A DNA stretch of 47,649 bases. Origin: a virus. The notes under the pieces are model-generated. The model ran no database searches. It was not told the origin of the DNA and worked only from the letters and a program-made list of their open reading frames with translations. The position numbers and the translations under genes were made by a program. Positions 16,049 to 43,588 of this stretch are shown here, one piece after another (position 1 is the first letter of the stretch; every line of letters begins with the position of its first letter). The stretch spans positions 1 through 47,649 of IMG/VR virus record IMGVR_UViG_3300008954_003537. One strand, 5' to 3'.

Positions 16049-16049
16049 T

Positions 16050-19621: not shown

Positions 19622-19631
19622 AGTTTTCTTT

Positions 19632-20385: not shown

Positions 20386-20404
20386 TTAATGTTTCCTCTT
20401 TCTC

Positions 20405-21091: not shown

Positions 21092-21094
21092 ATT

Positions 21095-23258: not shown

Positions 23259-23897
23259 TTACTCACTCCTTTTAAGATAAAAATCATTTATTTTCCATCT
23301 AGCATCTTTTTGATACCCAAAGTTTTTCATATAGGCTTCTATTTCGGGATCGTTAAAGTTGTTCTCCACTACTAATAATGGAATATCCCAATATGCAAGA
23401 TCCAAGCCCTTTAACACGTCAAGTTCAGTCCCTTCTGTATCAATTGAAATAAAATCTATATTATTTTCTACATTATGTTCAGTAAGAACTGTATTGAGAG
23501 TTTTTACTTCCACATTTATTTGACGCGTCTCATTGATGATATGGTGATGCTGTTCAACGAGTCGTTGATCTGGCATTAAACCACTCACCGACGACATTAT
23601 GTTCTTTTTGCCTATATCAAACACTGTAAAGGGAACATTTTGTTGATTATCGCTCCCACAAGCACATTGAATGGCTTCTTTTCGGGTTTTTTTAATCATT
23701 TCAAAATATCCCGGATTAGGCTCTATACATAGTGCTCTCCAACCTAATTTTTCAAAATATAAAGTATTTGAACCTCTCGTACCGTTTGCTGCCCCCACTT
23801 CAACGCAAACTCCCATATTCTTATTACAAAAATATAATTCTATTAGCACGTCAGTACTGAACTGACCATAATATCCTGATTTTGGCTCATACAGCAT
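23259..23897 (-). CDS. FkbM-family methyltransferase
   Basis: 212 residues from ATG at 23895-23897; an in-frame TTG five codons upstream is also possible. Motif I is GVCVEVGAANGTRGSNTLYFE, then WRALCIEPNPGYFEMIKKT, CACGS, and IDFISIDTEGTELDVLKGLD, the standard FkbM order (IDxEGxE). It likely O-methylates a sugar. The start overlaps the preceding gene by 11 bases. It is clearly a separate branch from the two other FkbM-like proteins nearby. Confidence 0.86.
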   Translation of the reverse strand: MLYEPKSGYYGQFSTDVLIELYFCNKNMGVCVEVGAANGTRGSNTLYFEKLGWRALCIEPNPGYFEMIKKTRKEAIQCACGSDNQQNVPFTVFDIGKKNIMSSVSGLMPDQRLVEQHHHIINETRQINVEVKTLNTVLTEHNVENNIDFISIDTEGTELDVLKGLDLAYWDIPLLVVENNFNDPEIEAYMKNFGYQKDARWKINDFYLKRSE

Positions 23898-24648
23898 TGT
23901 TCTGTTTCTCAATAAAAGTTAAAATATAATCTATGTCTGCCATGTGAGGGATTTCATCGGTACTAGTTCCGTATGGTCGGGGGCAGTTCCAACGAGGAAA
24001 AGGCACACCCTTACGATAAACATTACAAGTATAATATAAATCTTTCTTATCGGGTAGTGAAATAATTTTGGCTCCGTCCTGGCTTGCTTCCTTATTATTA
24101 ATCTCCGAAAGCTCAAACTCCCAGGCTGAAAATCCTGGCTTTAAATACTTTTGAAAATATTCCTTTTTCCAAATTGAAGGATGGAGACTTGTCCTATATG
24201 ATGCTCCTTGGTGTAAAACCCTTAAATTAGGCTTGTCGTCATTCCATACATCATCCCAACTGCCTATATAGTGTAATGGATCGGTGTGTTTATTCAGGTG
24301 AGAATCCAACATTGCTTTTGAGGCTCGATTGTTTTTAATTTCGTCTTCTAATATCTTAAATTTCTTGATATCCACATGATCTAATAGCATCACATCTTCA
24401 ACTGTAAAAATAAAATATTCATCCTCTAAACTATCGATATAGGGGATTAACGGATCCGTCCAAAGTTTTCCGAAATCAGATTGATTCCCTAAAGAAACAA
24501 AACTACAATTTTCGGGCAACTCACAGTGTGGGCGCTTATCAAATCCCAAAAATACTATCTCTTGCCCTGGAAAATACTTATTAAACAGAGTATAATAGGG
24601 TTCTATTAGAAATGAATAATTGTTGGATGTAGCCACTAATACCTTCAT
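23887..24648 (-). CDS. Putative GT-A-like glycosyltransferase
   Basis: 253 residues. N-terminus MKVLVATSNNYSFLIEPYYTLFNKYFPG is a Rossmann-like strand-helix start. DEYFIFTVEDVMLLDHVD resembles the acidic metal site of small GT-A enzymes found in LPS clusters (xxxLEDxxLxxxVD). SFVSLGNQSDFGKLW and LHQGASYRTSLHPSIWKKEYF fit the acceptor half of that group. No known CAZy family can be assigned by eye. AAGGG precedes ATG at 24646-24648. It directly follows gmd in the transcript, so a GDP-sugar donor is possible. Confidence 0.65.
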   Translation of the reverse strand: MKVLVATSNNYSFLIEPYYTLFNKYFPGQEIVFLGFDKRPHCELPENCSFVSLGNQSDFGKLWTDPLIPYIDSLEDEYFIFTVEDVMLLDHVDIKKFKILEDEIKNNRASKAMLDSHLNKHTDPLHYIGSWDDVWNDDKPNLRVLHQGASYRTSLHPSIWKKEYFQKYLKPGFSAWEFELSEINNKEASQDGAKIISLPDKKDLYYTCNVYRKGVPFPRWNCPRPYGTSTDEIPHMADIDYILTFIEKQNNAV

Positions 24649-24649
24649 T

Positions 24650-25615
24650 TTATCCCTTACTATTCAATTGAATATCATTATCGATCATTTTTTTCACCAT
24701 TTCATCAAATGTAGTTGTCGGTTCCCATCCAAATTTGTTTTTAGCTTTGCTGTAATCACCAATCAAAAAGTCAACCTCTGCCGGCCGGAAGTATTTCTGA
24801 TCCTGTACGACATATTCGCCCCAATCATGAATGCCTATACTTGCAAAAGCTGCATCTAAAAAATCTCTAATTGAATGCTTCTTTCCAGTTGCAATCACAT
24901 AGTCATCAGCCTCATCTTGTTGCAAGATCATCCACATGGCTCTCACGTAATCAGGGGCATACCCCCAATCTCTTTCGGCGTCTAAATTGCCTAATGTTAT
25001 TTTATCAGCAATACCTAGATGAATTTTTGCAACGCCATCCGTTATCTTTCGAGTAACAAATTCAATGCCACGACGTTCTGATTCATGATTAAACAAAATG
25101 CCACTACATGCGAAAATGCCATAAGATTCGCGATAATTCTTAGTTATCCAATGCCCATAAAGCTTTGATACTCCGTATGGGCTTCTCGGATAAAAACGCG
25201 TGGTTTCGCGTTGTGGATTTTCTGTAACTTTACCAAACATCTCGGATGTGGATGCTTGATAGAATTTAATATTTTTTCCATATTCTCTGATGGCTTCTAA
25301 CATTCTTAAAACGCCCAAAGCATCAATATTGCCAGTTGTTTCAGGAGTGTTCCAACTCTCGCCCACAAACGACATGGCTCCCAGGTTATACACTTCATCA
25401 GGATCGCATTCCTTAATACAACGAAATAATGAATTTTGATCAGCTAAGTCGCCATTAATGAACCTTATTTTCCCTTCAAGATGTTTTGTGTTAAGTCTTA
25501 TTTTGGTAGAGCATCTTCGCTCCATGCCATAAATATTATATCCCTTGTCCAATAAAAAATCGGCAAGATAGCTGCCATCTTGGCCATTAATTCCGGTGAT
25601 TAGTGCTGTTTTCAT
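24650..25615 (-). CDS. gmd: GDP-mannose 4,6-dehydratase
   Basis: 321 residues. Diagnostic motifs: [19 protein letters not shown] at the N-terminus, [27 protein letters not shown] (catalytic Thr-Glu), [13 protein letters not shown] (Tyr-x3-Lys), FNHESERRG, and [20 protein letters not shown]. The enzyme turns GDP-mannose into GDP-4-keto-6-deoxymannose, precursor of GDP-fucose, GDP-rhamnose or GDP-perosamine. Slightly shorter than usual (345-370). A phosphomannomutase is encoded about 10 kb upstream, but no mannose-1-phosphate guanylyltransferase or a following reductase is visible in the window. AAGGG Shine-Dalgarno. Confidence 0.96.
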
Positions 25616-25956
25616 TTTTGTCCCTTATTAGAATTTGTGAAACGGAAAAAGTTGATATCGTTGATGCCTTTATCGTCTATGTATATGTCGCCGGATGGTT
25701 TTCCTAAAAATAGGTGGTGATATCTAACTCCCCATCCTTCTAATTGCCTTTTAGTGTCCTCTTCAAAAGCAGTGCATGCATATGCCACGGAATTATTGCT
25801 TCTTCCCATTCCTCTTGCGGTGTGGAAAATTATTGTATTTCCCTCATCGTATAATTGATTGATATGCTCTATCCGATCCATATAGGGAATGGCAAAGCCA
25901 TAATTCCCGCTCGTTAGTGAACAAATAGTTCCATCAATATCAAACACATACGTCAT
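25612..25956 (-). CDS. Small HAD-superfamily phosphatase
   Basis: 114 residues from ATG at 25954-25956 ([12 protein letters not shown]), chosen for the strong GGGAGG nine bases upstream and because the HAD motif I (DxDGT) sits right at the start. Other motifs: [12 protein letters not shown] (motif II Thr), [13 protein letters not shown] (motif III Lys and motif IV Asp-Asp). Such minimal cap-less HADs occur in capsule and LPS loci. Between the heptose kinase and gmd, it could remove the C1 phosphate of heptose-1,7-bisphosphate in place of GmhB; it lacks GmhB's zinc-binding cysteines, so this is only inference. Confidence 0.8.
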
Positions 25957-26746
25957 AAAATAAAGCCTCCCGAATATCATCTGGTGTTAAAACATAGGTA
26001 CCCATATGGGTAACTGAAATTGCTGCCATTTTGTTAGCCATAGGGATTGCTGCTTCAATTTTGTTTTTGCATAAATAGCCAAAAACCAAGGCAGCGAGAA
26101 ACACATCCCCAGCGCCACAAACGTCAAACACTTCTTTTGGCGCTGTTGTATAGTTTTTTCCTTGATATATGGCGCCTCTCTCTCCTAAAGTAACCACAAA
26201 TTGAGGATTGTCAAGATGTTTTTCTATATTTGAATATTCTTTTTCATTAATCTTGATAACGGAGTCAACAAAACAAGTTAAATCTTTCTTTTTAGTATCT
26301 ACGAAGACTGGAATTTTATGTTTAGCAAACAAAGTCGTTAATCTCTTACAAGTATTATACCTTAAAAATCCTTTATTGTAATCACTAATTACAACAGCAT
26401 CGTATTTTTTTAAAATACGCGGGGATGGGGTGCCAATGTCCATTTCTCTTCCGAGTTCCTTTTCGCCTTCATCCCAGCGTAAAATATGCTGGCTATATCT
26501 CTGATCAATAAATCTGTGTTTTTTAGTAATTTCTTCGCTTGTATAGTGATCAACTTTGATTCCAAAAGATTCAAGATTTAATCTCACATTAGAAGACATC
26601 CCTAATTTAGTTTCCTGGCTATATTCTTTGAAGACAGGCACTGGCGCTTCAGGACTAATCCTTTCACATACGCCATAATGATACACGTCCTCGCAGCTAT
26701 CACCGCAAAGCAGAACATTGTATGATTTTTGTTGTTGAAAAACCAT
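25940..26746 (-). CDS. HldE-type heptose-7-phosphate kinase domain (PfkB family)
   Basis: 268 residues, corresponding to the N-terminal domain of bacterial HldE (RfaE). The HldE mark ISPEAPVPVF is near residues 30-40; VVISDYNKGFL, FVDTKKKDL, INEKEYSNIE and FDVCGAGDVFLAAL (catalytic Asp in GAGD) follow in order. HldE kinase phosphorylates D-glycero-beta-D-manno-heptose-7-phosphate at O1. A little shorter than the usual 315-330 residues. GAGAGG before ATG at 26744-26746. It overlaps the adenylyltransferase gene by 47 bases: the two activities that E. coli fuses in one protein are separate here and in reversed order. Confidence 0.92.
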   Translation of the reverse strand: MVFQQQKSYNVLLCGDSCEDVYHYGVCERISPEAPVPVFKEYSQETKLGMSSNVRLNLESFGIKVDHYTSEEITKKHRFIDQRYSQHILRWDEGEKELGREMDIGTPSPRILKKYDAVVISDYNKGFLRYNTCKRLTTLFAKHKIPVFVDTKKKDLTCFVDSVIKINEKEYSNIEKHLDNPQFVVTLGERGAIYQGKNYTTAPKEVFDVCGAGDVFLAALVFGYLCKNKIEAAIPMANKMAAISVTHMGTYVLTPDDIREALFYDVCV

Positions 26747-27119
26747 CTATCCTCTCAAAAAATACCACATTTTTAGCATGCTCTCCTCCAATTACACGCT
26801 TATTTTTATAGTCGCTTCCTACTACCATTAAATCGGGCGCTGTTTCTTTTACCAATTGAATTAATCCATCATCAGAATCAAAAATAAAAACAGCATCGAC
26901 GCACCGGAGAGATTCAAGCATATAAGCACGATTATCTTGTGTATTAATGGGCCTGCCATTGCCCTTGTTTTCTTTAACTCTTCTGTCCGAATCAATTCCT
27001 ACAATCAAATAGTCACAACTTTCCTTAATAAACTCTAACATCTGAATATGTCCAACGTGCAAAATATCAAAACAGCCATTAGTAAAGCCTATAATCTTAT
27101 CTGTTCCAAAATTTGACAT
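26700..27119 (-). CDS. HldE-type heptose-1-phosphate adenylyltransferase domain
   Basis: 139 residues, equivalent to the C-terminal domain of HldE. The nucleotidyl-transfer motif is TNGCFDILHVGHIQML (HxGH near residues 21-24); also IVGIDSDRRVKENKG, RPINTQDNRAYML, VVGSDYKNKRVIGGE and the terminal FSTTKII segment, all family-typical. It activates heptose-1-phosphate with ATP to give ADP-heptose. AAGGAGG precedes ATG at 27117-27119. It lies between the epimerase and kinase genes with overlaps on both sides, so the three are probably translated as a unit. Confidence 0.93.
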   Translation of the reverse strand: MSNFGTDKIIGFTNGCFDILHVGHIQMLEFIKESCDYLIVGIDSDRRVKENKGNGRPINTQDNRAYMLESLRCVDAVFIFDSDDGLIQLVKETAPDLMVVGSDYKNKRVIGGEHAKNVVFFERIDGFSTTKIIQCSALR

Positions 27120-27990
27120 ATTCAGAAATCCCTCCTTTTAATGATATAAAGGGCTTTGCATATTGACCGTAGTTATGCAGTTTGGCAGTGTTTGCCTGAG
27201 TATAACGCTGATATTTTTCTACCAAAGAGTCAGGCATCGGTATTTCCTCTACTTCGAAATCATAATACTCGCCTAATATCTTGGGAATTTCAGTGAAAGG
27301 CTGAGGAATGCCTGTACCGCAGTTAAAAATACCACTAATATGAGGGTTTTCAATAAAATGATCATTAACGCTCACTACATCTTCAACATAAATAAAATCA
27401 CGCAAATAGTTGTCGCTATTTTCAAAAATCTTAATTTTTCCTCCTGCGTCAATTTGCTTCTTAAACTGACACATCACCGATGCCATGGCGCCCTTTCTAT
27501 CTTCCCATGGCCCATAAACATTAAAATAGCGCAATCCTACTACCTGTGGAATATTTGTTTGACCCAAATAAGAGTTTACATATTCGTCAAAGAGCTTTTT
27601 AGATTGTCCATAGATATTTTTTGGTTTAAGCTTAGAGGGCTCGTCCTCCCTATAAGGACCATCGCCATAGACAGCAGCAGAAGATGCATATATAAATCTA
27701 ACATCATACTCTAAACAGATTCTAAATAAATCAAAGCTATAATCAAAATTATGGCGCATCATATAAAAAGGATCGTACACGGTAGTGTCCGAACAAGCGC
27801 CTTGATGAAGAACTACTTTGATTCGATTACGAAAATCCTCTTGTTTCATCTTTTCTAAAAATTCATGAGGATCCATCATAGGAACAGAAGCATGCTTTTT
27901 AAAATCAACCAAAAGAACATCATGTTTATCGACTAATCGTAAATAAAGATTCCAGCCAATAAACCCACTGGCGCCGGTAATAACTACCAT
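27097..27990 (-). CDS. hldD: ADP-L-glycero-D-manno-heptose 6-epimerase (HldD)
   Basis: 297 residues. ITGASGFIGWNL is the NAD(P)-binding motif; LHQGACSDTT is specific to HldD; YASSAAVYGDG, KNIYGQSKKLFDEYV (Tyr-x3-Lys) and VVGLRYFNVYGPWEDRKGAMASV complete the family pattern, as does LRDFIYVEDVV. It converts ADP-D-glycero-D-manno-heptose to the L-glycero form, the donor for LPS inner core. Normal length is about 310. GAGAGGATATAA before ATG at 27988-27990. It leads a heptose gene set that continues with the adenylyltransferase, kinase and a HAD protein. Confidence 0.95.
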   Translation of the reverse strand: MVVITGASGFIGWNLYLRLVDKHDVLLVDFKKHASVPMMDPHEFLEKMKQEDFRNRIKVVLHQGACSDTTVYDPFYMMRHNFDYSFDLFRICLEYDVRFIYASSAAVYGDGPYREDEPSKLKPKNIYGQSKKLFDEYVNSYLGQTNIPQVVGLRYFNVYGPWEDRKGAMASVMCQFKKQIDAGGKIKIFENSDNYLRDFIYVEDVVSVNDHFIENPHISGIFNCGTGIPQPFTEIPKILGEYYDFEVEEIPMPDSLVEKYQRYTQANTAKLHNYGQYAKPFISLKGGISEYVKFWNR

Positions 27991-28833
27991 TTATATCCTC
28001 TCTATGAGATTAACAAAATATTCCAAAGCCTCAATATTTTTTTGTTCTATTGTATCAATAAGCTCATCACCACTCTGTTCGCTATATGGTTCGCTAAAGA
28101 ATCCGATTCTTTTTTTATTTGTAGCTACTCCTAAGTTAAGCATTTTGGCTTCGGCACAAATGCGAGAATATGTCTCCAGCACAGTTGGTAAAAAAATAAA
28201 GTTTTTGCATGCCGCCATCTGCTCTAGAAAATGATAATAATTAGAACTATGCATTTCTAGAGGAGTAATGTTTTGCGAATTACAATAGTTCATAGTTGCA
28301 GTATAATTTTTAGTAGGATTGGCGCTTTTCATGATACCATAATCATGTATTTTTGGCTCCTTGTTTAATTTCCTTAATAATGTTAATGTCTCCGGGCTCC
28401 ACAAGCTACAACCAATACTGTGAACCTGAGCATTGGGAAGATTTAACTTCATTACTTCTTGGCAAATTCTGCTTAATACTACAACAGTTTTAGCATTATT
28501 ATAAAACCTCTCATTAACCAAGCAACTTGTGGGTGCCTTAAAATTCGGAAACCTAGAAGGATCTCTAGTGATTACATATTTGTGATCATGTTCATAAATG
28601 ACATAGGGAACATTATTAATGATATATTCTTTAATAGTATCTGGCAACCAAACAAAATTTCCAACAACAACCGCATCTACTTTTTCAATATTCTGAACGG
28701 TTACTTGATTACACTTGTGTGTGAGAACTTCAAATTGTTTTATCAAATGACGAATAAGATTAGCATCGTTACTCTCGCCACCCCCAAGCAACTCATCACG
28801 GAACAGATCAGCAATAAATGCTATCCGTTTCAT
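27991..28833 (-). CDS. Glycosyltransferase (GT4-like, short)
   Basis: 280 residues. N-terminal IAFIADLFRDELLGGGESNDANLIRHL is a GT-B opening; VGNFVWLPDTIKEYI and YVIYEHDHKYVITRDP are typical of phage and bacterial GT4-like enzymes; C-terminal LPTVLETYSRICAEAKML contains the E-T-Y-S-R-I-C-x-E-A signature that corresponds to the EGFGLxxLEA donor site. Donor unknown. Its ATG overlaps the stop of the preceding GT4 gene (ATGA), giving a run of three glycosyltransferases. Confidence 0.76.
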   Translation of the reverse strand: MKRIAFIADLFRDELLGGGESNDANLIRHLIKQFEVLTHKCNQVTVQNIEKVDAVVVGNFVWLPDTIKEYIINNVPYVIYEHDHKYVITRDPSRFPNFKAPTSCLVNERFYNNAKTVVVLSRICQEVMKLNLPNAQVHSIGCSLWSPETLTLLRKLNKEPKIHDYGIMKSANPTKNYTATMNYCNSQNITPLEMHSSNYYHFLEQMAACKNFIFLPTVLETYSRICAEAKMLNLGVATNKKRIGFFSEPYSEQSGDELIDTIEQKNIEALEYFVNLIERI

Positions 28834-30083
28834 AGCATTTCAATCTCTGATAGTGATTTCAGCCATTCTTTTTCTTCTTCTGATGGAGAGTAAATAGCAT
28901 CCACCATTTTCTGATGCATAATTTCCGGAGAAAACCGTTGGAATAGATTGTCGGCGTATTCCACCGCTGCATCTTTTACAGAGGAGTTCTTATTAAGATC
29001 CTCGTAGCATAATCTCATTTGCTGTTTAGCTGATTTTTCTTGCGGATATGCCCACATAGATTCTTTTATAAGAACATGTTCCCAGAAAGCCTCATCGGGA
29101 ATAGGTTGAATATCATATCTCACGCTATAAAATCTTTCGCGGCCAGATTCATCTATCAGAAAATCCAAATGCCCCGACCAACCAACAGTAACCACAGGTA
29201 AGCCACAATATGCCGCCTCAAACAAAGGCAAGCCAAACCCTTCGCCATGAGAAAACAACACTAGTGCATTAATCTGCGGGTGTTGATATAGGGCGTGCAT
29301 TTCCTCATCTGTCATATCTCCATGGAGGAGGTAGATTTTACAAGTACGCTCGCCGTGATTATCTCTAAGGTAGGATTGAAGATCAAACAGAATTTTTTCA
29401 CGATCCATAAGACAGTTTTTAGCCACATTTGTCTTTAACACCAAACCAACCTCTTCCGTCTGAAATTCTTCTACGAACCATTTTACGGTATTGAAAAGAT
29501 TTTTACGAGGGCCAGCTTGAGCAACACAAAGGAAATTAAAATTGTTTGTGAGTTCAATGTCCAAATCCTCTAGATTGTCGTATTCTTTTACCGGATAATT
29601 TACCACTTCTATGGGTGTTTCCAGTTTAAGGCGCATTTCGTTGCCAGTACCGTCATCGCGTGTCATTGTATAAAGTGTTTCCGCAAACGTTCTCTTGGAA
29701 TGTTCTGAAACCACAATAATTTTGTCCATTTCATTCGCTTTTACAAGCCATTGTGCTGCCACCCTTGTAGTTTCAATGCCTGCAGTTACTCCTACGTTAT
29801 AGGGTGCCATTTTTTGCCATTCATTAGGAATAGTTACTTGAACAGATATATCAAATTGTCCACCCTGTTGCATATAGGCAATTGTTTTTTCAATAGTTCT
29901 ATCAATCCAAAGTCTTTCTTCGGATGACTCGTTTAGCCAAGATGTTTGTCCCCATTGTAAAGGTTGAATAAATATTTCAAACATTTCGCTGCAGCTGCGG
30001 AGAGATCTTAAAACAAAGCGAGCATGCTCCCCATAACCAGATCGAGTTAAGAGCGGCCCTTTTAATATGACTTTCTGTTTCAT
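28830..30083 (-). CDS. GT4 family glycosyltransferase
   Basis: 417 residues from ATG at 30081-30083 (MKQKVILKGPLLTRSGYG), chosen for a strong GGAGG five bases upstream. GT-B fold marks: TRSGYGEHARFVLRSL at the N-terminus, MDKIIVVSEHSKRTFAET in the linker, FLCVAQAGPRKNLFNTVKWF, and the donor-site signature FSHGEGFGLPLFEAAYCGLPVV. The retaining GT4 family uses nucleotide sugars such as GDP-mannose or ADP/UDP sugars. The start overlaps the previous GT4 gene by four bases. Probable assembly enzyme for the island's glycan. Confidence 0.9.
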   Translation of the reverse strand: MKQKVILKGPLLTRSGYGEHARFVLRSLRSCSEMFEIFIQPLQWGQTSWLNESSEERLWIDRTIEKTIAYMQQGGQFDISVQVTIPNEWQKMAPYNVGVTAGIETTRVAAQWLVKANEMDKIIVVSEHSKRTFAETLYTMTRDDGTGNEMRLKLETPIEVVNYPVKEYDNLEDLDIELTNNFNFLCVAQAGPRKNLFNTVKWFVEEFQTEEVGLVLKTNVAKNCLMDREKILFDLQSYLRDNHGERTCKIYLLHGDMTDEEMHALYQHPQINALVLFSHGEGFGLPLFEAAYCGLPVVTVGWSGHLDFLIDESGRERFYSVRYDIQPIPDEAFWEHVLIKESMWAYPQEKSAKQQMRLCYEDLNKNSSVKDAAVEYADNLFQRFSPEIMHQKMVDAIYSPSEEEKEWLKSLSEIEML

Positions 30084-31363
30084 GCAACCTCCAACATATG
30101 CCAACGTTTATATCCAGTTCGGGATCCCCACGAACCATGGTTCTCAATTGTTTTATCCATTATGTCAATCCATCCTTGTTGATATTTTGCAAAACTATAA
30201 TTATCATTTACATGTTGCATGCCTCCGAGGGACATTTTTTTATAAGCTTTTTTGCTCACACTAAGTGCTTTTTTAAGAGTATTAGAAAAATCCTCTTGAG
30301 ATAACCTATCTTCATAAATATAGGGCACTTGGAGCGAACCAATAACCGCTTTTGAAGCCGGTTGTATGCCCCATCCAAACCACTCTTTTCCATTAGTAAC
30401 TTGCTCTTGAAGCCCTCCTGTCATATTAACAATAATAGGAGTGCCGCACGATAACGACTCCAATGTTGACAAGCCAAATCCCTCAGCATCGCTGATATTG
30501 AGAGTAAAATCTGCAGCATTATACATACCTGCTAAATGTTCAGGTTCAATTTTTGATGTAGATATCAACACTTGTCCATCGTTAACCCCTAAATGATTGA
30601 TAATATGCGGCAAGTCTTGTCCATGGGGATCTCTAGCGTCTGTATGCATTAACAGCGTTGCTTGATCGTGCCCGACTTCATCTAAAAATTCCTTAAACCA
30701 CCAAATCAACGTACCCGACTGCTTTCGTCTAGCATTCCGATTGTTCCAGAAGAAAATTTTCTTATTAGGATTCTTTAAGTTTACAGTACTGTTTTGAATT
30801 CTATTTCTTACTTCCGTAACTCTCGCTTTTTCTTCGTCTGTTTTATAAAGGTGAAAGATGCCGGGATCTACGGCATGAGGGTGATAACATGATGATACGC
30901 CTGGGGCGACATCTTGTAAAATTTTGTGAGTTACTTTTGAAATACACACCACTTCATCTGTAGAACGATAAAATTGTCCATTAAAAGAGGGTGCGGGAAA
31001 ATTATCCCACACATGATAATATATCATTGGAAGATGAGTACGAATCTCATTCTCTATTTCCCACAACCATCCAAAAAAGCGGGGATCTGTCATAAACCAT
31101 AGAGCATCTGGCGTTTCTTTTTGTATGATAGAGCGAATAATTTCATGATTTCCATACCCATCGATGGGAAATATGCGCCAATCATCACCCCAGGGCTCTA
31201 CCTTTTGGGGACGATAATCTTGATGTTTGACGGCACCTCCTAAGCAAATAAATTGATATCTATCCGTTTTAAGAAGAGTTTCAATAAAATACTTAGTCTG
31301 AGTCCCAACACCAGAAGGGGATAAAGGGTGATCTGAAATCACCAGGATTTTCTTTTTTGTCAT
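30080..31363 (-). CDS. GT4 family glycosyltransferase
   Basis: 427 residues. ILVISDHPLSPSGVGTQTKYFIETLL (N-terminal GT-B opening), TDEVVCISKVTHKIL, KKIFFWNNRNARRKQSGTLIWWF, and the donor signature ISDAEGFGLSTLESLSCGTPIIV. Same class as the next gene but not a close duplicate. It is the first gene of the glycan island in transcription order, following the exonuclease gene by nine bases. GAGG precedes ATG at 31361-31363. Substrate not predictable by eye. Confidence 0.9.
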   Translation of the reverse strand: MTKKKILVISDHPLSPSGVGTQTKYFIETLLKTDRYQFICLGGAVKHQDYRPQKVEPWGDDWRIFPIDGYGNHEIIRSIIQKETPDALWFMTDPRFFGWLWEIENEIRTHLPMIYYHVWDNFPAPSFNGQFYRSTDEVVCISKVTHKILQDVAPGVSSCYHPHAVDPGIFHLYKTDEEKARVTEVRNRIQNSTVNLKNPNKKIFFWNNRNARRKQSGTLIWWFKEFLDEVGHDQATLLMHTDARDPHGQDLPHIINHLGVNDGQVLISTSKIEPEHLAGMYNAADFTLNISDAEGFGLSTLESLSCGTPIIVNMTGGLQEQVTNGKEWFGWGIQPASKAVIGSLQVPYIYEDRLSQEDFSNTLKKALSVSKKAYKKMSLGGMQHVNDNYSFAKYQQGWIDIMDKTIENHGSWGSRTGYKRWHMLEVA

Positions 31364-34474: not shown

Positions 34475-35092
34475 CTAATTAGTCTGCAACATTTCTTCTA
34501 ATCTTTCTTTAATATATGATTCGCTATAGCCATAAACACCATCATATATAACCCGATTACGGTCAATAAAAACAAAAGTAGGATAAGCCCCAATAGGATA
34601 AGCCCCCTCATCGGGATCTCCTATCAAATCTGTGCTTCCTAATAAAACTTTCGCTGTCGTAATACCATATGCATCCATCCAAGCGGTGGCATCGGCAGTA
34701 TCTGGCTGATTATTCTCAACATCTGCTAATAAAACAGTCACAATTTGCACTCCTTCTGAATCGTATTCATCTTGAAGAGATTGAGATGTCTGCGCAGCGG
34801 AGCGGCATGCCGAACACCACATTGTGGAGAAATCAAGGACAACAATGTCGCCTTTCTGGCTATATAATTCCCATGTCTGTAGTACGTGATCTGGGAGAAC
34901 TAAATTACACACTGTATCTCCAATATTTTGACTACAATCTTCAGACGCGTGTACTCCGTAAACAGTTGAACCAGTGTCCTCGTTTTCAACAACTCCCACA
35001 ATAACTTCATCTGCTGCAGCAGCTTCAGTGTCTATTGTCACTGGTGCGCTTTTAGTACAAGCAAATAATAATAAAAACAATAATTTAAACAT
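34475..35092 (-). CDS. Thioredoxin-like (TlpA-type) lipoprotein
   Basis: 205 residues. MFKLLFLLLFACTKS is a short signal peptide with a lipobox-like LFAC, so a membrane-anchored periplasmic protein is predicted. A spacer rich in Ala/Glu/Asp follows, then a thioredoxin fold: DIVVLDFSTMWCSACRSAAQ with the redox pair C-S-A-C near residue 92, VTVLLADVE, and IGAYPTFVFIDRNRVIYDGVYGY with the cis-proline (YPT). TlpA-like proteins reduce or oxidise disulfides in the cell envelope. Phage genes of this kind are uncommon. GAGGG precedes ATG at 35090-35092. A 47-base gap separates it from the upstream gene. Confidence 0.85.
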   Translation of the reverse strand: MFKLLFLLLFACTKSAPVTIDTEAAAADEVIVGVVENEDTGSTVYGVHASEDCSQNIGDTVCNLVLPDHVLQTWELYSQKGDIVVLDFSTMWCSACRSAAQTSQSLQDEYDSEGVQIVTVLLADVENNQPDTADATAWMDAYGITTAKVLLGSTDLIGDPDEGAYPIGAYPTFVFIDRNRVIYDGVYGYSESYIKERLEEMLQTN

Positions 35093-35647: not shown

Positions 35648-36466
35648 TTAAAATCTACGCATTAGTTCTTCTATAATATAGTTGTCTATTATCTCTATTG
35701 TCTCTTCCGGGCTCCCTGTTTCAAAAGCGCGCTGTTTCGGCTTAAGAAAATTAAATATTTCATAATCATTTCCACCAACTCCACATCTATCACCTACAAA
35801 CCAAAAATCCCAATCTCCTTCTTCGAAGTGGCTCAGAGCATATGTTTTATCCCATCCTTTGGGATATATATCAAAAGATGTGTTGCCTCCGAGCTTGATT
35901 GTTGCATCAAATTCATTGTTTTTTACAAAATCACATAACACATCAAAATATTTACTACGTATTTTGTACTCTTTATCCATCTTGGTAAACTCTTCTCTTT
36001 GTTCTGGTGTGGCATTGCGACCGATTGGGCACCAGTTAATCATCGACTCACGGTTCTGTATGAAATGCCCCGACAACGGAATTGTATAATCTGCGTTCTG
36101 AACTATCTCTCCCTGAAGAGTGCACAATTTATTCAAAATTTTATTAAAAATATCTTCACCAATGTGCCTCTCCATAGAAACATTGTGTATTTCATGAAAA
36201 AGAAGATTTTCTTCTGCGTGGGGTATAAAATATTTTGTACCATTACAGGGCAACAAGTGACAATTGCTACGAACAATAGGATCATTCAAGACTGGCCACA
36301 ATTGTTCCTTAATATATTCCATATCGCTTCCTGTTACAAAAGCAATCTCTGCATATCTAGCTAACTCTCTGAGAACTAACAACATATTCTTTTCTATAGA
36401 CTGCCTTGCTTCTGTCAGGGTTCCATCAACATCAAACAGAACAAGGGTATTGGGTACAATAATCAT
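35648..36466 (-). CDS. Eukaryotic-type phosphomannomutase (HAD family)
   Basis: 272 residues from ATG at 36464-36466, selected for GAGGAG and ATGA overlap with the upstream stop. HAD nucleophile motif LVLFDVDGTLTEAR (D12, D14), then VTGSDMEYIKEQL, FIQNRESMINWCPIGRN, REEFTKMDKEYKIR, GGNTSFDIYPKGWDK and FVGDRCGVGGNDYEIF. This order matches human PMM1/PMM2, the alpha-PMM1 HAD family, and not the bacterial ManB/AlgC phosphohexomutase fold. It interconverts mannose-6- and mannose-1-phosphate, the precursor for GDP-mannose and thus for gmd in the glycan island. Normal PMM length is about 250. Confidence 0.93.
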   Translation of the reverse strand: MIIVPNTLVLFDVDGTLTEARQSIEKNMLLVLRELARYAEIAFVTGSDMEYIKEQLWPVLNDPIVRSNCHLLPCNGTKYFIPHAEENLLFHEIHNVSMERHIGEDIFNKILNKLCTLQGEIVQNADYTIPLSGHFIQNRESMINWCPIGRNATPEQREEFTKMDKEYKIRSKYFDVLCDFVKNNEFDATIKLGGNTSFDIYPKGWDKTYALSHFEEGDWDFWFVGDRCGVGGNDYEIFNFLKPKQRAFETGSPEETIEIIDNYIIEELMRRF

Positions 36467-36723
36467 TTTCTCCTCTGGGTAGGAAATGCCCAAAAATCGT
36501 CATCTTTTTCTGAAATTGTTTCATATCGATTTGCACATTGGCATTTCCCGTAAACCACATAATCTAATCTTCCATATTGCGCACATGATGACTCACACTG
36601 TGTTATCACTGCTGGGAAGTTTGCTTGGCGAGTATATTCATATATCGCATAGCACGTAGCGAGACTCACTACTAACACAATTTTAAAAATATATTCTAAT
36701 CTATCTCTCTCAATTTTATCCAC
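36463..36723 (-). CDS. Small single-pass membrane protein with cysteine-rich outer domain
   Basis: 86 residues from GTG at 36721-36723, with AAAGG eight bases upstream. A charged N-terminus (DKIERDRLEY) precedes one transmembrane helix (IFKIVLVVSLATCYAIYEY). The following part carries four cysteines as CESSC and CQC, which would form disulfides if exported to the periplasm. Function unknown. It lies between another membrane protein and the phosphomannomutase, with overlapping reading frames on both sides. Confidence 0.65.
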   Translation of the reverse strand: MDKIERDRLEYIFKIVLVVSLATCYAIYEYTRQANFPAVITQCESSCAQYGRLDYVVYGKCQCANRYETISEKDDDFWAFPTQRRK

Positions 36724-36953
36724 AAATTAAGCCTTTTGTCATAGATTAATCTATTTCGTGCCAGATCATCTCTAATATCCTCATTAGGATACACTATATC
36801 TGGAACAAGTGTAGGATAATTTATCAATTCTTCAAATTCTCTTTTGATTTTTCTTTTATGCTGTAAGTAAATAATGCCAGCAAACAAAAGCATGCTCGCC
36901 ATAAATAAACCAAATATTAGGTAAAAATCATTCAGGATTGATAACGTAACCAA
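36696..36953 (-). CDS. Small single-pass membrane protein
   Basis: 85 residues, apparently starting with TTG at 36951-36953 (GGGAG about 12 bases upstream, so the start is uncertain). DFYLIFGLFMASMLLFAGIIYL is one transmembrane helix, followed by a basic stop-transfer segment (QHKRKIKREFEEL) and a soluble charged tail. Orientation by the positive-inside rule is C-terminus in the cytoplasm. It overlaps the von Willebrand lipoprotein gene by 26 bases and the next membrane protein gene by 28. No family recognised. Confidence 0.62.
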   Translation of the reverse strand: MVTLSILNDFYLIFGLFMASMLLFAGIIYLQHKRKIKREFEELINYPTLVPDIVYPNEDIRDDLARNRLIYDKRLNLWIKLREID

Positions 36954-37833
36954 CTTCGATTAAACTCCCTTCTGATGGTATAAAATCTAAATATACCGTA
37001 TTTGTGTTAGATAAATAGTACCATTCTTCTGTTGGGATTTTGTCTAAATAAACAACGATACTATCTTCAACAGGCGTATGATTTAAATTAATATAATCTA
37101 TGGGGCCTGTCAAAAAGGTACTATCTGACAACCAGGCTTCCCAATCGGTACAAATATCAATTCCCATTTTGCCATAATATGCTACTAAATCAATATATTT
37201 GTCCCCAATGTTGATAGAGGAATATTCACATTCACTATTTTCTGTTACAACTATAGCCACTGCATCGTGTTGTACGTCGCTATATTCCGCCTTGAGCCAT
37301 TCATGCATTACGGATGGAGTAATGCTGCTTTGTTCATCTTCATCTGAAATAAAAATAAATAATTTGTCTGCAGTCTCTCTAAGAAATTGAATTCCTTCAT
37401 CAGTAAATGAAAAATCATACAAAGCATGAAAACCTTCCTCTTTGCTATCAAGGCCCAATTGATATGGTGCTAGTAAAATATCAATAGATGTTGACATTAT
37501 ATCATAAGGACCAATAAAATATGGATCCCTTAAAGAGCTATTAATAAAACCAATCTGATAATCGAAGGTAATAGTCTCAATATCACCTTTTAATAGCTCA
37601 ATACCACGACTAACTTGTTCATAGTTATCGTTCATTGAGCAAGAGGTGTCTAGTATTACCAAAACATCTAATTGTTCTGTTTCGGCTGGCTGAACTAATG
37701 ATTGAATTATAACTTCTGTCGGGAGAATCTCTTCTACGTCTTCCACCACAGTGGATATCCCGAAATCTTGGACACATCCAAAAATCATAAACAGAGCTAA
37801 ATATGTATAAGTTAAAACCTTCCTAATGATCAT
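36928..37833 (-). CDS. Von Willebrand factor A domain lipoprotein
   Basis: 301 residues from ATG at 37831-37833 (a GTG one codon earlier is also possible). MIIRKVLTYTYLALFMIFGC is a signal peptide with lipobox-like IFGC. LDVLVILDTSCSMNDNYEQ near residue 60 supplies the MIDAS motif (DxSxS), and LFIFISDEDEQSS a later acidic strand, typical of a VWA domain with metal-dependent protein binding. The C-terminus has beta-rich repeats (VEDSIVVYLDKIP, NTVYLDFIPSEGSLIEVGYV). VWA lipoproteins are common in bacteria such as Myxococcota-like groups but rare in phages. It may alter the host surface or bind envelope proteins; this is inference. Confidence 0.82.
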   Translation of the reverse strand: MIIRKVLTYTYLALFMIFGCVQDFGISTVVEDVEEILPTEVIIQSLVQPAETEQLDVLVILDTSCSMNDNYEQVSRGIELLKGDIETITFDYQIGFINSSLRDPYFIGPYDIMSTSIDILLAPYQLGLDSKEEGFHALYDFSFTDEGIQFLRETADKLFIFISDEDEQSSITPSVMHEWLKAEYSDVQHDAVAIVVTENSECEYSSINIGDKYIDLVAYYGKMGIDICTDWEAWLSDSTFLTGPIDYINLNHTPVEDSIVVYLDKIPTEEWYYLSNTNTVYLDFIPSEGSLIEVGYVINPE

Positions 37834-37885
37834 CACAATCGCAAGGAGTATATCCGCAGCATGGACACCTAAAATTAGGATCCAC
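37823..37885 (-). CDS. Candidate cysteine-rich microprotein, 20 residues
   Basis: Starts with GTG at 37883-37885 and ends with TAG at 37823-37825. The product would read MDPNFRCPCCGYTPCDCDDH: five cysteines in CPCC and CDC, suggesting metal binding. A very strong AGGGAGG Shine-Dalgarno lies five bases upstream, and the stop region overlaps the start of the VWA lipoprotein, which itself lacks a Shine-Dalgarno. It may be a real microprotein or a leader that couples translation of the lipoprotein. Too short to judge from composition alone. Confidence 0.4.
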   Translation of the reverse strand: MDPNFRCPCCGYTPCDCDDH

Positions 37886-38114: not shown

Positions 38115-38274
38115 TAAATGTCCGCTTCGTTATTAACTCTTTTCTCTTCAATCTTTTTTTCTTTTCTATCAAATGCCATAAATCCTCTAATTGATCCTTA
38201 AAAATATCATTAGCTACCTTTTTTTTTCTTTTGGATTTATCACTAAGGCTTGGAGTTCTGCGCTTTTTTGGCAT
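38080..38274 (-). CDS. Small highly basic protein, unknown function
   Basis: 64 residues, nearly half charged and mostly Lys/Arg (PKKRRTPSLSDKSKRKKKV at the N-terminus; KKKRLKRKELITKRTF later) with a short amphipathic helix between (FKDQLEDLWHLIEK). Nucleic-acid binding is plausible from charge only. ATG at 38272-38274 overlaps the TAA of the upstream gene (TAATG), supporting its reality through coupling. It overlaps the following gene by 35 bases. Confidence 0.58.
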   Translation of the reverse strand: MPKKRRTPSLSDKSKRKKKVANDIFKDQLEDLWHLIEKKKRLKRKELITKRTFNEQEEEKLSTR

Positions 38275-38522
38275 TAATGAACTTCTCCATCAACAATATC
38301 TTTTCTACGAATTTCTCTAAAGCCTTTTAAACTAGGAGGCTCTTCATCGTTATTTCGTTTGCGATATTCATATTCCGCAAGATATCCCATTGTTTCTATT
38401 ATTCCGTCATTCTTGCCATTCATATCTTTAGATCTAAAGAATAAATCGCTCACTATGGCGTCAAGTGTCTCATCTGATAAAGCTTCAAAAAAACAATTCA
38501 GATTCATTGTCTCTGTTGGCAT
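38274..38522 (-). CDS. Small acidic protein, unknown function
   Basis: 82 residues from ATG at 38520-38522 (MPTETMNLNCFFEAL), chosen for AGAGG five bases upstream; an earlier in-frame start would include that site. Helical first half (SDETLDAIVSDLFF), then a segment with YLAEYEYRKRNNDEEPPSLKG. No family recognised. The Shine-Dalgarno begins right after the tmRNA 3' end, with no terminator between, so the gene is probably on the same precursor transcript as the tmRNA. Confidence 0.6.
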   Translation of the reverse strand: MPTETMNLNCFFEALSDETLDAIVSDLFFRSKDMNGKNDGIIETMGYLAEYEYRKRNNDEEPPSLKGFREIRRKDIVDGEVH

Positions 38523-38536
38523 TTTTCCTCTCAAAA

Positions 38537-38874
38537 TGGTGGAGTGCAGGGGAATTGAACCCCTGTCCAGAATATCTCTAATACTAAGTCATTCACAAGC
38601 TTGGTCAGTTTACTATCACAAACTGACAAAGATAGATGGTTATAATCTAATGCTTACCATCCTGTTGCATTAGATGGGTTGATTTTTGCAACTTATCTGT
38701 TGTTTTGCTCAAATTGGATAGAAGGCTTTGAGCAGCCTCCTCGATTATGCCGCTAGTGCGACTGCTTCGAAGTGTTTGTTGTTATTGGCAACTATTAAAT
38801 TTGAACTGTTGAGGTCGTATCTAACCTACTTGCACTCTTTATTTTCCTTACCCTGTCGAAACCATTAGCACCCC
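38537..38874 (-). ncRNA. ssrA: tmRNA (ssrA), one-piece
   Basis: Full-length tmRNA of 338 bases. The 5' end reads GGGGTGCTAATGGTTTCGAC, the canonical start, and the 3' end has a T-arm (AGGGG-TTCAATT-CCCCT) and GCACTCCACCA with encoded CCA. The seven-pair acceptor stem includes G3:U70, the identity element for alanyl-tRNA synthetase. An internal reading frame (38745-38789) gives the degradation tag. tmRNA rescues stalled ribosomes by adding the tag and releasing them. A possible poor promoter lies just upstream; processing from a longer transcript is also possible. This is the only stretch in the window over 300 bases without a protein gene. Confidence 0.96.
38745..38789 (-). other. tmRNA tag-peptide reading frame
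   Basis: Within the tmRNA, resume codon GCC at 38787-38789, preceded by AATAGTT (compare TTAGTC before the resume codon in E. coli), then fourteen codons and TAA at 38745-38747. The encoded tag is ANNNKHFEAVALAA, to which the charged alanine is added in front. It ends in ALAA, the ClpXP/ClpAP recognition end shared with most bacteria, but is longer than the usual ten codons. Confidence 0.93.
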
Positions 38875-38884
38875 TTAGTATATA

Positions 38885-39091
38885 TCACTTCTTACAAACA
38901 ATGACACCAACTGGAGAATGATCTTTATCATCTAGCCAAATTAGTGTCTCTTTTTTGGTTTTTTCTTTTACAGAAAATTTAAATTCAATTTCTTTATTTG
39001 CTTTCTTAAGAGCTAAAGCTTGTGTTTTGTGTTGGCTAATCAAGTCTCCCTGAATAAACCTACCATTCCATTTATAAAGCTTGCAAATCAC
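38885..39091 (-). CDS. Small basic protein, unknown function
   Basis: 68 residues from GTG at 39089-39091, with AGGA eight bases upstream. Starts ICKLYKWNGRFIQGDLISQHKTQALALKKANKEIEF, then FSVKEKTKKETLIWLDDKDHSPVGVIVCKK; strand-helix-strand alternation suggests a small alpha/beta fold. Basic overall. It overlaps the upstream gene by 20 bases and ends 10 bases before the tmRNA. No family recognised. Confidence 0.58.
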   Translation of the reverse strand: MICKLYKWNGRFIQGDLISQHKTQALALKKANKEIEFKFSVKEKTKKETLIWLDDKDHSPVGVIVCKK

Positions 39092-39738: not shown

Positions 39739-39767
39739 AATGTAATCACGGATGTTTTAGGTGTCAA
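39739..39767 (-). promoter_or_regulatory. Sigma70-like promoter upstream of the helix-turn-helix gene
   Basis: Minus strand: TTGACA (39762-39767), 17-base spacer, TACATT (39739-39744), 10 of 12 matches. It lies in a 113-base AT-rich gap between the helix-turn-helix gene and a virion-like gene, and would give a leader of about 65 bases. Position at a change from virion-type to auxiliary genes supports it. Confidence 0.6.
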
Positions 39768-40388: not shown

Positions 40389-41267
40389 TTATAGTTCCAG
40401 TTCTTCTGCACCCGCTTCAGGCGCCATTTCTTCGCCACCGCCGCCTTCTGCTTCTGCTGCAGCTGTATCATATGCCTGATTTGTTGGCTCATCAACTTCT
40501 GAAGATAATTCTCCTTCAAACTTGTCAAAATAAAGTTTAAGGTTAGCTATTAAATAATCGTAAAACAGTTCTTGATCTTCAGTATTGGATAAAAGCTCAT
40601 ATGCATCAATAACACTACTTTGAATCTTCTTAAATGATTCATATGCCATATTTCTCCCGGTTTCATCTGCGCCCTCGACTCCCGAACCAAATTCTTCGCG
40701 AGGATCGGCTTCTTCCTCTTCGTCTTCAGCAGCAACTTCCGCATCGGTGCGAATATCAATAAATTTATCTTCATCGGCGCCGCCAATGTCTATATCTACA
40801 GCTTCTTCTAGTTCGCGCGTAATCTCCGCTGTATCTTCGCCTCCAGCCTCATTGTTGGTTTTTGCCGGCGTTAAAGCATCGATAACAGCATTAATAATGT
40901 GGGCTCTGAATGATTCTCTTTGCTCTTTGGCGGTTGTAAGCAGTTTATAGTCAGTTTCAAGAACAGGAACGATTTTCTTTAATAAATCTTCCAAAACGTT
41001 TATCCCAGTTGACTTATTGGGGGCAGGATCACCGTCAGGTGTACTTGCTTCTATTAGGATATTCATTTCACGTTTAATAAACTGTCGAACAATACGACGA
41101 AATTGATTTTCTTCATTTAGCGCCGATACTTCATAATCTAATAATTGTTGAATAATATTTTTTAGTCTTTTTTCTTCATTCAATTGAGCATTTTCTCTTT
41201 TACTCTTGACATGTCGAATCAAATGACGTATATTATCTCTAAGCTTCTCTTCTTCTCTTTGGTTCAT
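40389..41267 (-). CDS. Probable virion protein with N-terminal helical repeats and acidic tail
   Basis: 292 residues. Three related helical units at the N-terminus (EEKLRDNIRHLIRHV, EKRLKNIIQQLLDYE, ENQFRRIVRQFIKRE) lead to MNILIEASTPDG, where LIE followed by A matches the T4 prohead protease cleavage pattern. The middle is helical and the C-terminus is very acidic with an Ala/Glu/Gly-rich end. An internal head or core protein processed during maturation is plausible. GAGG nine bases before ATG at 41265-41267; the start is within the end of the upstream gene. Confidence 0.6.
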   Translation of the reverse strand: MNQREEEKLRDNIRHLIRHVKSKRENAQLNEEKRLKNIIQQLLDYEVSALNEENQFRRIVRQFIKREMNILIEASTPDGDPAPNKSTGINVLEDLLKKIVPVLETDYKLLTTAKEQRESFRAHIINAVIDALTPAKTNNEAGGEDTAEITRELEEAVDIDIGGADEDKFIDIRTDAEVAAEDEEEEADPREEFGSGVEGADETGRNMAYESFKKIQSSVIDAYELLSNTEDQELFYDYLIANLKLYFDKFEGELSSEVDEPTNQAYDTAAAEAEGGGGEEMAPEAGAEELEL

Positions 41268-43588
41268 GTTACAATGCCTCTTTCAATAAGTAGTTCATAT
41301 ACTTCCTTAACTAAACTCATGTCTATATTTTCGTTTTTTCTCTTCTTTTTCTTTTTCGCCGGCCATTTTTTAACCGACGATGATCCCAAAGGGAACGGTG
41401 CGCCATATCCTCCTACGGCGCCGACACCTGACTCTTCTTTGAGCGGTTCAAATATTGACAATAAATCATTTATTCTTTCTTTAGGTATAAATTCAGATAA
41501 TGCTTTTCGTGCTGTCGGATGGTTAGGGTTTTCTTTTAAATCGCTAATTAGATCGCGCATTGCACTGGCACTAAAGGGAGTTCCACAAGCGCGATCAGTA
41601 CATTCTACCGCGTTTTCTTCTATATCCATTATTTCCAACCCTGGTTTAACGCTTTTGCTATTATGTACTCCCTTCCACCGATGCCAATCAGGAATTCCGT
41701 TTTCATCAGGTTTTGTACTAGCACCTAAAATAACCCGATGTTTATCCGGATCTAATGGGCCACTAGTTCCAATATAATCATAAGCAGCCTGAACGGGGGA
41801 CGCGTAATCCGATTCAGTATCGATATATATCTCGGCGCCCGATATTTGCGGCAAAAAAACATCTTCCCATACTTTCCTTGCGTGAGATTGTACAACTTCA
41901 GTGCCATCTTTTAAATATCTGCCCTCTTTGGTGGGTTTAGAGATTAAAATGATAACTTTATCAGCTTTGTCTGCATATTTTTGAACCATATCAGCGTGTC
42001 CTTGATGTGGTGGTTTAAAAGCACCTGGAACAATCGCAATTGTCTGTTTTCCCTCTGGCGTAAACTCGCTATCCACGACAGGATCTTCATTTTCGTCTTC
42101 AAACTCAAGAACTACTGATTCTTGCAAGAAGTTTTTAGTATAATTATAAACAGTATTGTATATAACAGACTGAGCATCTTCTTGGCGTACAGATTCTACA
42201 ACCAAGCCGCCACTTAAAAGATCCTCATATACAAAGAATGGGACGTTTCCTGGGACATGTCCTGCTCCTTTCATTTCGTCCAACCACTCTCGAAGGGTTT
42301 TGGTGATTTTAGTGTCTTTTGACACATTGATGGTGAGACTTTTTGCTAAACCCTCATTCATTCCAGAACGACGTGCTCTCCCAATCAATTGATTAGCCAT
42401 GGCAAACGCCCCAGTAAGCTTATAAATCTTACCTGAGCCTGGTGGATATTCAAAAGTAATCCCCTCTAAAGAAGAGGCTACATTTTCAATGTTTCCAAGT
42501 TTGGATAGTTGCTTGTCTATCAATTCGGCAGCTTTAGGATCACCACTATCAGCTAATTGCTGTAAGTATACTATTGATTGTTCTAATTCTTGACGCATTC
42601 GTATAACTTCTTCGTCGTGTGCGTCTACAAAAAAGCTTTTCATTCCCCGCAAGACTTCGATAGCAAAATCGCTAATAGCTATTTCTATTGGCTTTAAAAT
42701 AGAAGCAATAACTTTCTTAGAGTTAGTTTTTGTTCCTAGTTTTGAGATAATCGGTTTTAACTCACGCGGAACTCTTCTTTTTAGATCAGCAGCGCCTATT
42801 CCCCTTTCCTTAGCTTCGTCTGGATCGAGAACTAAAATCAACATATCATCAATAACATCCCTAGGCAATCCACCTTCTTCGGCATATTGTCTTAAATAAA
42901 GCTCTACTAAATCTCCTAGTGTTTTATTGAGTCCTACTGGTTGTGCAAACCTCTCAATTTCCGCTGTTACTCGCTCTAAAGCAGAGCCATCTGCTAAAGC
43001 TTGAAGCTCAACGAGCTTTGGGCCATTAACTCTCCAGACTTCTTCACCTACTTGACTTTCGGCAGCATCCATAAGCTCCGATAACTCTTTAAAGGCGGCA
43101 TCGGCTAAATCTTCTAACCTTTTCTGTTCTTTTTTGTCTTCTTGTTCGCCAACATACACCAATCCGTGTAAGACAACTTCGGGAGATGCGTAGTGAATAA
43201 TATTTGGATTTTTGGGATACATAATTTCCATATTTACGTACCTTTCCCCGCCAGAAAAAAGATCTTGGAGTGTTTGTGCGTCTAAGCTTTTTAGAGCAGT
43301 TGTGATGGCGCTGAAGCCGTTCATAAACGCATCCTTGGCGCCATGCACCTTCCACTTGTCTGCATATTCAGCAACAGTCATTCCGCCCTTCGCAATATCG
43401 CTTTTATTACGAGCCGCTCGAAAATCACCGGCAGAATCTACAGACAGAAAAAGGTTTTGCCCATCAACCTTTTCTGTGACTTTTTTTATCTCTGCACGAG
43501 CAACCTTTCCAAGAACATCTAGTATTTCATTAAATGTGAGGTCCAAATCTTCGGACAGATGCGCCATATGTCCACCAAGTCCGCCCAT
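41264..43588 (-). CDS. Ligase-like KxDG domain fused to NMNAT-type nucleotidylyltransferase
   Basis: 774 residues. N-terminal part has KVDGQNLFL (K40-x-D-G, ligase/capping lysine motif), FRAARNKSDIAKGGM and YVNMEIMYPKNPNIIHY, as in a large group of marine phage proteins related to polynucleotide ligases. A helical middle (residues about 170-480) follows. The C-terminal part carries GAFKPPHQGHADMV near residue 520 (HxGH) and FSASAMRDLI near 675, the two binding motifs of NMNAT/NadR-like adenylyltransferases. A Lys-rich stretch (WPAKKKKKRKNE) precedes the end. Activities are inferred: nucleic-acid end joining or NAD-linked adenylyl transfer. Confidence 0.78.
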   Translation of the reverse strand: MGGLGGHMAHLSEDLDLTFNEILDVLGKVARAEIKKVTEKVDGQNLFLSVDSAGDFRAARNKSDIAKGGMTVAEYADKWKVHGAKDAFMNGFSAITTALKSLDAQTLQDLFSGGERYVNMEIMYPKNPNIIHYASPEVVLHGLVYVGEQEDKKEQKRLEDLADAAFKELSELMDAAESQVGEEVWRVNGPKLVELQALADGSALERVTAEIERFAQPVGLNKTLGDLVELYLRQYAEEGGLPRDVIDDMLILVLDPDEAKERGIGAADLKRRVPRELKPIISKLGTKTNSKKVIASILKPIEIAISDFAIEVLRGMKSFFVDAHDEEVIRMRQELEQSIVYLQQLADSGDPKAAELIDKQLSKLGNIENVASSLEGITFEYPPGSGKIYKLTGAFAMANQLIGRARRSGMNEGLAKSLTINVSKDTKITKTLREWLDEMKGAGHVPGNVPFFVYEDLLSGGLVVESVRQEDAQSVIYNTVYNYTKNFLQESVVLEFEDENEDPVVDSEFTPEGKQTIAIVPGAFKPPHQGHADMVQKYADKADKVIILISKPTKEGRYLKDGTEVVQSHARKVWEDVFLPQISGAEIYIDTESDYASPVQAAYDYIGTSGPLDPDKHRVILGASTKPDENGIPDWHRWKGVHNSKSVKPGLEIMDIEENAVECTDRACGTPFSASAMRDLISDLKENPNHPTARKALSEFIPKERINDLLSIFEPLKEESGVGAVGGYGAPFPLGSSSVKKWPAKKKKKRKNENIDMSLVKEVYELLIERGIVT

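Follow-up and report, generated by a model that had tools for sequence, protein, structure and literature searches.

A complete one-piece tmRNA gene with a clade-specific tag in an uncultured, apparently T4-like phage lineage

Genes for tmRNA, an RNA that releases stalled ribosomes and labels incomplete proteins for degradation, are uncommon in phages; a survey of 18,146 phage genomes found ssrA in 402, a share stated as 2.3% (PMC9004378), which bears out the remark of the first-pass annotation that only some phages carry it. When such a gene is met on a phage contig, the question is whether it is intact and in use, and to what end. We addressed this question for a gene in a 47,649-base IMG/VR virus contig, which was analysed at its full length and is called the window below.

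The tmRNA gene of the window

ARAGORN called a single tmRNA in the window, at 38537-38874 on the minus strand, with the tag ANNNKHFEAVALAA; the mature ends enclose 338 nt. The match to the covariance model RF00023 had identical coordinates and was full-length (model positions 1-374), with a score of 98.9 bits (E 1.5e-37), about twice the gathering score of 47. All elements lie on the minus strand. The acceptor stem is formed by the 5' strand GGGGUGC (38868-38874) and the 3' strand GCACUCC (38541-38547), with G3 at 38872 and the equivalent of U70 at 38543, and both the discriminator A and the CCA end are encoded (38537-38540). The T-arm AGGGG-UUCAAUU-CCCCU is found at 38548-38564, and all its 5 pairs are intact in 100% of aligned cells. 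The tag reading frame with its TAA stop occupies 38745-38789, where the resume codon GCC is followed through 14 codons up to TAA.

The gene has a tRNA-like domain with G3:U70, T-arm and CCA, an open tag frame with a degron-like LAA end and a stop codon, and pseudoknots both before and after the tag (PK1-PK4), as is characteristic of a one-piece tmRNA. The model of the permuted two-piece tmRNA (RF04321) scored 54.3 bits on an overlapping stretch, as against 98.9 bits for the one-piece model, and was rejected, the one-piece order being complete. ARAGORN, RF00023 and the sequence itself thus agree with the first-pass annotation, which had read the stretch as a complete phage tmRNA with these named elements, leaving the strand unstated, and had proposed the RF00023 search as its check. 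The tmRNA is very probably phage-encoded, complete and functional, as judged from its sequence.

Relatives, the shared tag and the host

A 774-aa protein encoded at 41264-43588 was used as query and led to 19 related viral contigs. A full one-piece tmRNA is present in 12 of them; the other seven comprise six contigs no longer than 22 kb and one of 90 kb. The tags of the relatives include ANNNNHFESVRLAA, ANNNTHFEAARLAA, ANNNLHFEQRLAA and ANNNNFYDVALAA. As these 12 tmRNAs were located via the neighbour protein and not via the tag, the likeness of the tags is not a selection effect, and since the relatives have the tmRNA in the same operon, the gene is not a stray copy.

Pattern-based scanning of viral contigs enlarged the set to at least 96 distinct one-piece phage tmRNAs with ANNN-initial tags, mostly ANNNxHF[E/D]...LAA. 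The pattern for this larger set required ANNNx[HY][FY][ED], so that conservation of the motif is there partly by construction; the LAA end was not required and is present in 88 of the 96 listed tags. Tag codons in these 96 tmRNAs vary synonymously while the residues are held, which is partly a result of the search method. The predominant ends are QRLAA, VRLAA and ARLAA, most relatives having RLAA rather than ALAA. The tags listed are of 13 (n=47), 14 (n=42), 15 (n=6) or 23 (n=1) residues. The first-pass annotation had described the tag as unusually long: its 14 residues do exceed the commonest bacterial length of 10 (PMC11915505), but such a length is normal in the phage clade, where 95 of the 96 listed tags have 13-15. 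The RF00023 scores of the relatives range from 92 to 124 bits (window 99), compared with a maximum of about 206 among the bacteria searched.

Other viral tmRNAs were also met. Two outlying one-piece tmRNAs, in contigs L057 (3203-3612) and L109 (600-959), have the tags ANNNTEIVMVHPALIAALEGAAA and ENNNENLALAA respectively and probably belong to other lineages. Many IMG/VR contigs (for example L009, L013 and L075) have two-piece tmRNAs with the recurrent tags ANTSDSAANNIVAFSRSTVAA and ANDAQFALAA.

The tag had been taken in the first-pass annotation as a strong clue to the host, and this was not borne out. The pattern R-TTGC-ANNNx[HY][FY][ED] was scanned in genome_contigs over 84,980 species genomes, with one genome per species and an exact RTTGC prefix. 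It gave 23 stretches, only two of which are tmRNAs, both in phage-like contigs within metagenome bins, one of Neomarinimicrobiota and one of Flavobacteriales. One of these contigs has the small upstream gene of the window, and in the other a tubulin-like ORF occurs together with small ORFs of phage type. No bacterial chromosome among the about 85,000 species genomes fits the tag pattern, and the tag therefore identifies no host; with the exact prefix and one genome per species, the scan may have missed a host that is not represented or whose tag departs slightly from the pattern. The Neomarinimicrobiota bin also contains a tmRNA of its own (tag ADYGYAAAA), and the tmRNAs fetched from Neomarinimicrobiota and Bacteroidota have other tags, of 8-10 residues in nearly all. 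Because the tmRNAs of both phyla differ in their tags, a host assignment by binning was rejected and the bins are not counted as host evidence. There is a precedent in the OM43 phage Melnitz, whose ssrA is from a bacterial lineage different from that of its host (PMC9004378).

Two further observations may be added. In a 4.7 kb contig (L154), a tubulin/FtsZ-like ORF, recognized by eye, lies at 823-2040 on the minus strand; some 0.6 kb separate it from a tmRNA of phage type whose tag is ANNNYHFESVRLAA. In the Flavobacteriales MAG SZUA-1004 (G002:C126; L166, 1493-1926), ARAGORN called a permuted two-piece tmRNA with the tag ANNADYTRNYSYALAA, the intervening segment of which contains a 28-codon ORF, MESKLLIGTFILLGFVVLGVWVFVTYAL.

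A phage-specific, conserved tag (ANNNxHF[ED]..LAA), unlike those of Neomarinimicrobiota and Bacteroidota, could point to a role in retagging, in which the phage tag would replace that of the host and alter degradation, or would feed amino-acid recycling from host proteins. In E. coli, LAA is the contact for ClpX, and RLAA instead of ALAA could weaken recognition by ClpA. However, with LAA kept in most tags a ClpX-type fate looks unchanged, and RLAA ends are found in some Bacteroidota tags too. Amino-acid recycling has been put forward for phage Melnitz (PMC9004378). On balance, we consider retagging or redirecting to be unlikely as the main role of this tmRNA.

The phage operon and conservation of the RNA structure

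The window encodes two baseplate wedge proteins, a late sigma factor-like, a PhoH-like and an exonuclease protein and two endolysin-type proteins, and its gp25-like protein has 31-38% identity to T4-like and cyanophage proteins among the matches listed. These genes and matches indicate a fragment of a tailed phage, which is probably T4-like. Searches of INPHARED isolates gave no DNA match for the window region, and at the protein level only remote matches for the neighbour proteins and none for the small upstream protein. The phage group is apparently uncultured and T4-like, and no isolate or earlier description of it was found. Judged from the gene families of the contig and the operon shared with relatives, the tmRNA lies inside the phage genome and not in a host flank.

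Other genes of the window deserve mention in their own right. A long block of sugar-nucleotide/LPS-type genes extends over 12471-31363 and includes GDP-mannose dehydratase-like, UDP-glucose dehydrogenase, glycosyltransferase, radical SAM (with B12 domain) and methyltransferase genes. The protein encoded at 35648-36493 (minus strand) matches the eukaryotic phosphomannomutase family PF03332 (E 4.8e-40), which is unexpected for a phage. Two lipoprotein-like ORFs, one VWA/integrin-beta-like (36928-37836) and one thioredoxin-like (34475-35092), are also on the minus strand, and in many relatives the thioredoxin-like gene precedes the tmRNA by about 200 bp.

The genes flanking the tmRNA are all read leftward. 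The upstream neighbour, a 68-aa gene at 38885-39091 (minus strand), has its stop codon ending 10 nt before the tmRNA. The downstream ORF (38274-38522, minus strand) starts with ATG at 38522, 15 nt past the CCA, with TTG at 38534 as an alternative listed start, and a ribosome-site-like stretch, GAGAGGA, directly follows the CCA and precedes this ATG. As the tmRNA is closely flanked by genes of the same direction, its excision from a longer transcript is very likely needed. A promoter-like TTGACA-17-TACATT at 39739-39767 (minus strand) lies in the gap upstream of the operon and is weak, such sites being not above chance there. The T4 late promoter TATAAATA was considered and rejected; its count was not above chance and none lay near the tmRNA. 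The neighbour genes are on the same strand and in unchanged order in the relatives. In 22 contigs of the phage group, of up to 293 kb, neither SmpB nor a tyrosine integrase was detected; these contigs are fragmentary. SmpB was detected in all ten bacterial controls and the integrase controls were likewise detected. Given the lack of SmpB in these contigs, that of the host would be used.

The RNA structure was assessed in a 45-sequence alignment covering the acceptor stem, T-arm, connecting helix, PK1-PK4 and a fifth hairpin/pseudoknot. Pairing was found in 90.3% of cells and two-sided changes in 49 of 78 pairs; cells with two-sided changes numbered 318, compared with 84 in shuffles and 21-51 in slid structures. 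The structure was drawn from the window sequence, which favours the percentage paired somewhat and the two-sided changes less. PK1, upstream of the tag, lies at 38803-38827 (helices 4-6, 83-96% of cells paired). The other pseudoknots, also on the minus strand, are PK2 at 38707-38739 (helices 7-8, 93% and 99% of cells paired, 7 pairs changed on both sides), PK3 at 38681-38702 (helices 9-10, 99% and 79%, the second helix of 3 pairs being weaker) and PK4 at 38635-38675 (helices 11-12, 14 of 15 pairs changed on both sides). PK2 and PK4 are the strongest. A candidate fifth pseudoknot is located at 38604-38634 on the same strand (helices 13-14); its hairpin is well supported, and a pairing of the loop to upstream sequence is possible but weak, with two-sided changes in 1 of 4 pairs. 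The foldable pseudoknot region whose absence the first-pass annotation had held to count against a tmRNA is thus present: the window sequence allows the pseudoknotted helices to pair, and the relatives show covariation in them.

In the 96 listed tmRNAs, the acceptor stem is wholly paired in 95 and G3:U70 is found in every one, and positions 4-7 of the stem covary, with GC/AU/CG exchanges. A covarying stem with an invariant G:U third pair is expected of a tmRNA selected for charging by alanyl-tRNA synthetase. The A at -4, equivalent to A86 of E. coli, is kept in the upstream sequences of the relatives. Conservation of this extent indicates that the RNA is useful, and does not in itself tell for which use.

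RNAalifold placed a 4-pair hairpin around the resume codon (alignment columns 104-107 with 115-118). In the window, this possible hairpin at 38778-38792 (minus strand) would pair GUUG (-3 to +1) with CAAC (the last base of codon 3 and codon 4). The combination of base -3 and the third base of codon 4 is G-C in 66, A-T in 24, A-C in 6 and G-T in none of the 96 listed tmRNAs. On a tree made without these columns, the informative independent pairs all agree (6 or 7 of 7; median p 0.0156 by a two-sided sign test), and no comparable link was seen for the third base of codon 3 in the same tree test. A possible helix around the resume codon, which could block the upstream sequence, has been noted in E. 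coli (PMC2481249). The hairpin is supported by covariation and is weak alone; it is regarded as a candidate because the helix in isolation has a free energy near zero and a competing register exists.

Genes for tmRNA are common integration sites, and an origin of this kind has been suggested for other phages (PMC9004378, PMC11590407), so that the gene could be a copy of host ssrA, taken over when it served as an attachment site or when excision was imprecise, with no role of its own. Against such a remnant stand the full-length gene in a same-strand operon, its unchanged place in many relatives, the deep divergence with covariation, and the scan in which no bacterial chromosome had the tag of the window. 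The negative search for tyrosine integrase in the 22 contigs is consistent with this. The remnant reading is largely refuted already by the long-term structural conservation, and we hold it to be very improbable. It is just as improbable that the RNA is a decoy inhibiting host tmRNA by titration of SmpB, as does the TLD-like RNA of mycobacteriophage DS6A, a TLD-only RNA that inhibits tmRNA (PMC4131195, PMC11915505), since a decoy would not need the pseudoknots, resume region, tag and stop codon that are all conserved here.

The upstream gene and the proposed function of the tmRNA

In 49 sequences, the window included, the gene immediately before the tmRNA encodes the 68-aa protein or a homolog of it. 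At 39 of these 49 loci, the window not among them, the upstream frame enters the tmRNA and stops inside it, at nt 6-8 (24 loci), within 10-13 (2), at 25-27 (10) or within 38-41 (3). Mapped on the tree, presence or absence of the overlap has switched 6 times or more and its offset 14 times or more, so that overlap persists even though the reading frame moves. The protein is conserved across relatives and has no Pfam family above cut-off. The predicted fold of one homolog (L227) has a pLDDT of 91; the fold search gave no PDB match at E<=0.001 and one unnamed viral model of 64% identity. The protein was also considered as an ArfA-like rescue factor and rejected as such, there being no homology or fold match to a known rescue factor.

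In bacteria, RNase P cuts the 5' end of tmRNA (PMC3985003), and the arfA mRNA is non-stop and repressed by trans-translation (PMC10107115). With a stop codon inside the tmRNA and an RNase P cut at its 5' end, the upstream mRNA would become non-stop. It is conceivable, though we advance it tentatively and as unlikely, that in this clade the tmRNA and the small upstream gene form a self-regulating pair, the product of the gene being tagged for destruction by the same tmRNA. The small protein would then accumulate only when trans-translation is saturated or failing, as does ArfA. The overlap in the relatives resembles the logic of ArfA in E. coli in that the small protein gene would be non-stop and hence a tmRNA substrate; unlike there, the cut is predicted to be made by RNase P, at the end of the tmRNA, and not by RNase III, and the overlap is absent in the window, where the position of the stop codon would leave the pair uncoupled. 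Alternatively, the overlap may be only genome compaction. The overlap found in many relatives suggests a mechanism, open to experiment, by which a virus could produce non-stop messages itself.

For the tmRNA itself, the sequence evidence makes it highly likely that a lytic, T4-like lineage of myoviruses encodes it in functional one-piece form and that it supplies ribosome rescue. It would be co-transcribed with its neighbours and excised by host tRNA-processing enzymes, charged with alanine through G3:U70 and then bound by host SmpB. It would enter ribosomes stalled on stop-less mRNAs and append the 14-residue tag, and the -LAA end would target the tagged proteins to a ClpXP-like protease of the host. 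The phage would most likely benefit by sustaining ribosome rescue during infection, when host mRNA is being degraded and transcription of host ssrA may fail. The gene is complete and conserved in sequence, with covarying structure, a charging determinant, a conserved tag and a place in an operon, and from these we infer expression, charging, use of SmpB, proteolysis and the benefit to the phage.

Phage tmRNAs are already known, and that of the window is another phage-encoded one-piece tmRNA. Streptomyces phages (for example CeilingFan and Jay2Jay), mycobacteriophages Bxz1 and Wildcat and Bacillus phage G are likewise large tailed phages with a complete one-piece tmRNA, and the Streptomyces phage tags, of 11-13 residues, have an ALAA end like the LAA-type end of the window. 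Unlike the gene described here, they have other tags, similarity to the present family is limited to a 58-nt 3' stretch (84.7% identity among the matches listed), and no phage kinship was seen. The OM43 phage Melnitz and pelagimyophages are, similarly, marine phages of T4-like type that have ssrA in an operon and in which no integrase was found (PMC9004378), but theirs is a permuted two-piece gene of alphaproteobacterial type with a glutamine riboswitch, whereas the window has a one-piece gene and another tag. Bacterial one-piece tmRNAs (RF00023) share the TLD with G3:U70, PK1 before the tag, later pseudoknots and the LAA end; the phage RNAs differ in their low bit scores and in a longer, clade-specific tag. 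What is new is the phage-specific tag clade, the covariation around the resume codon and the overlap of the upstream gene in relatives, though not in the window.

Only 2.5% of the one-piece phage tmRNAs in a phage survey were marine (PMC9004378). One-piece tmRNAs are thus reported to be rare in marine phages, and the large uncultured lineage described here retains one under strong selection. Its approximately 96 natural variants may be used to address what a phage gains from a rescue system of its own, which tag residues are important, and whether pairing around the resume codon is in use.
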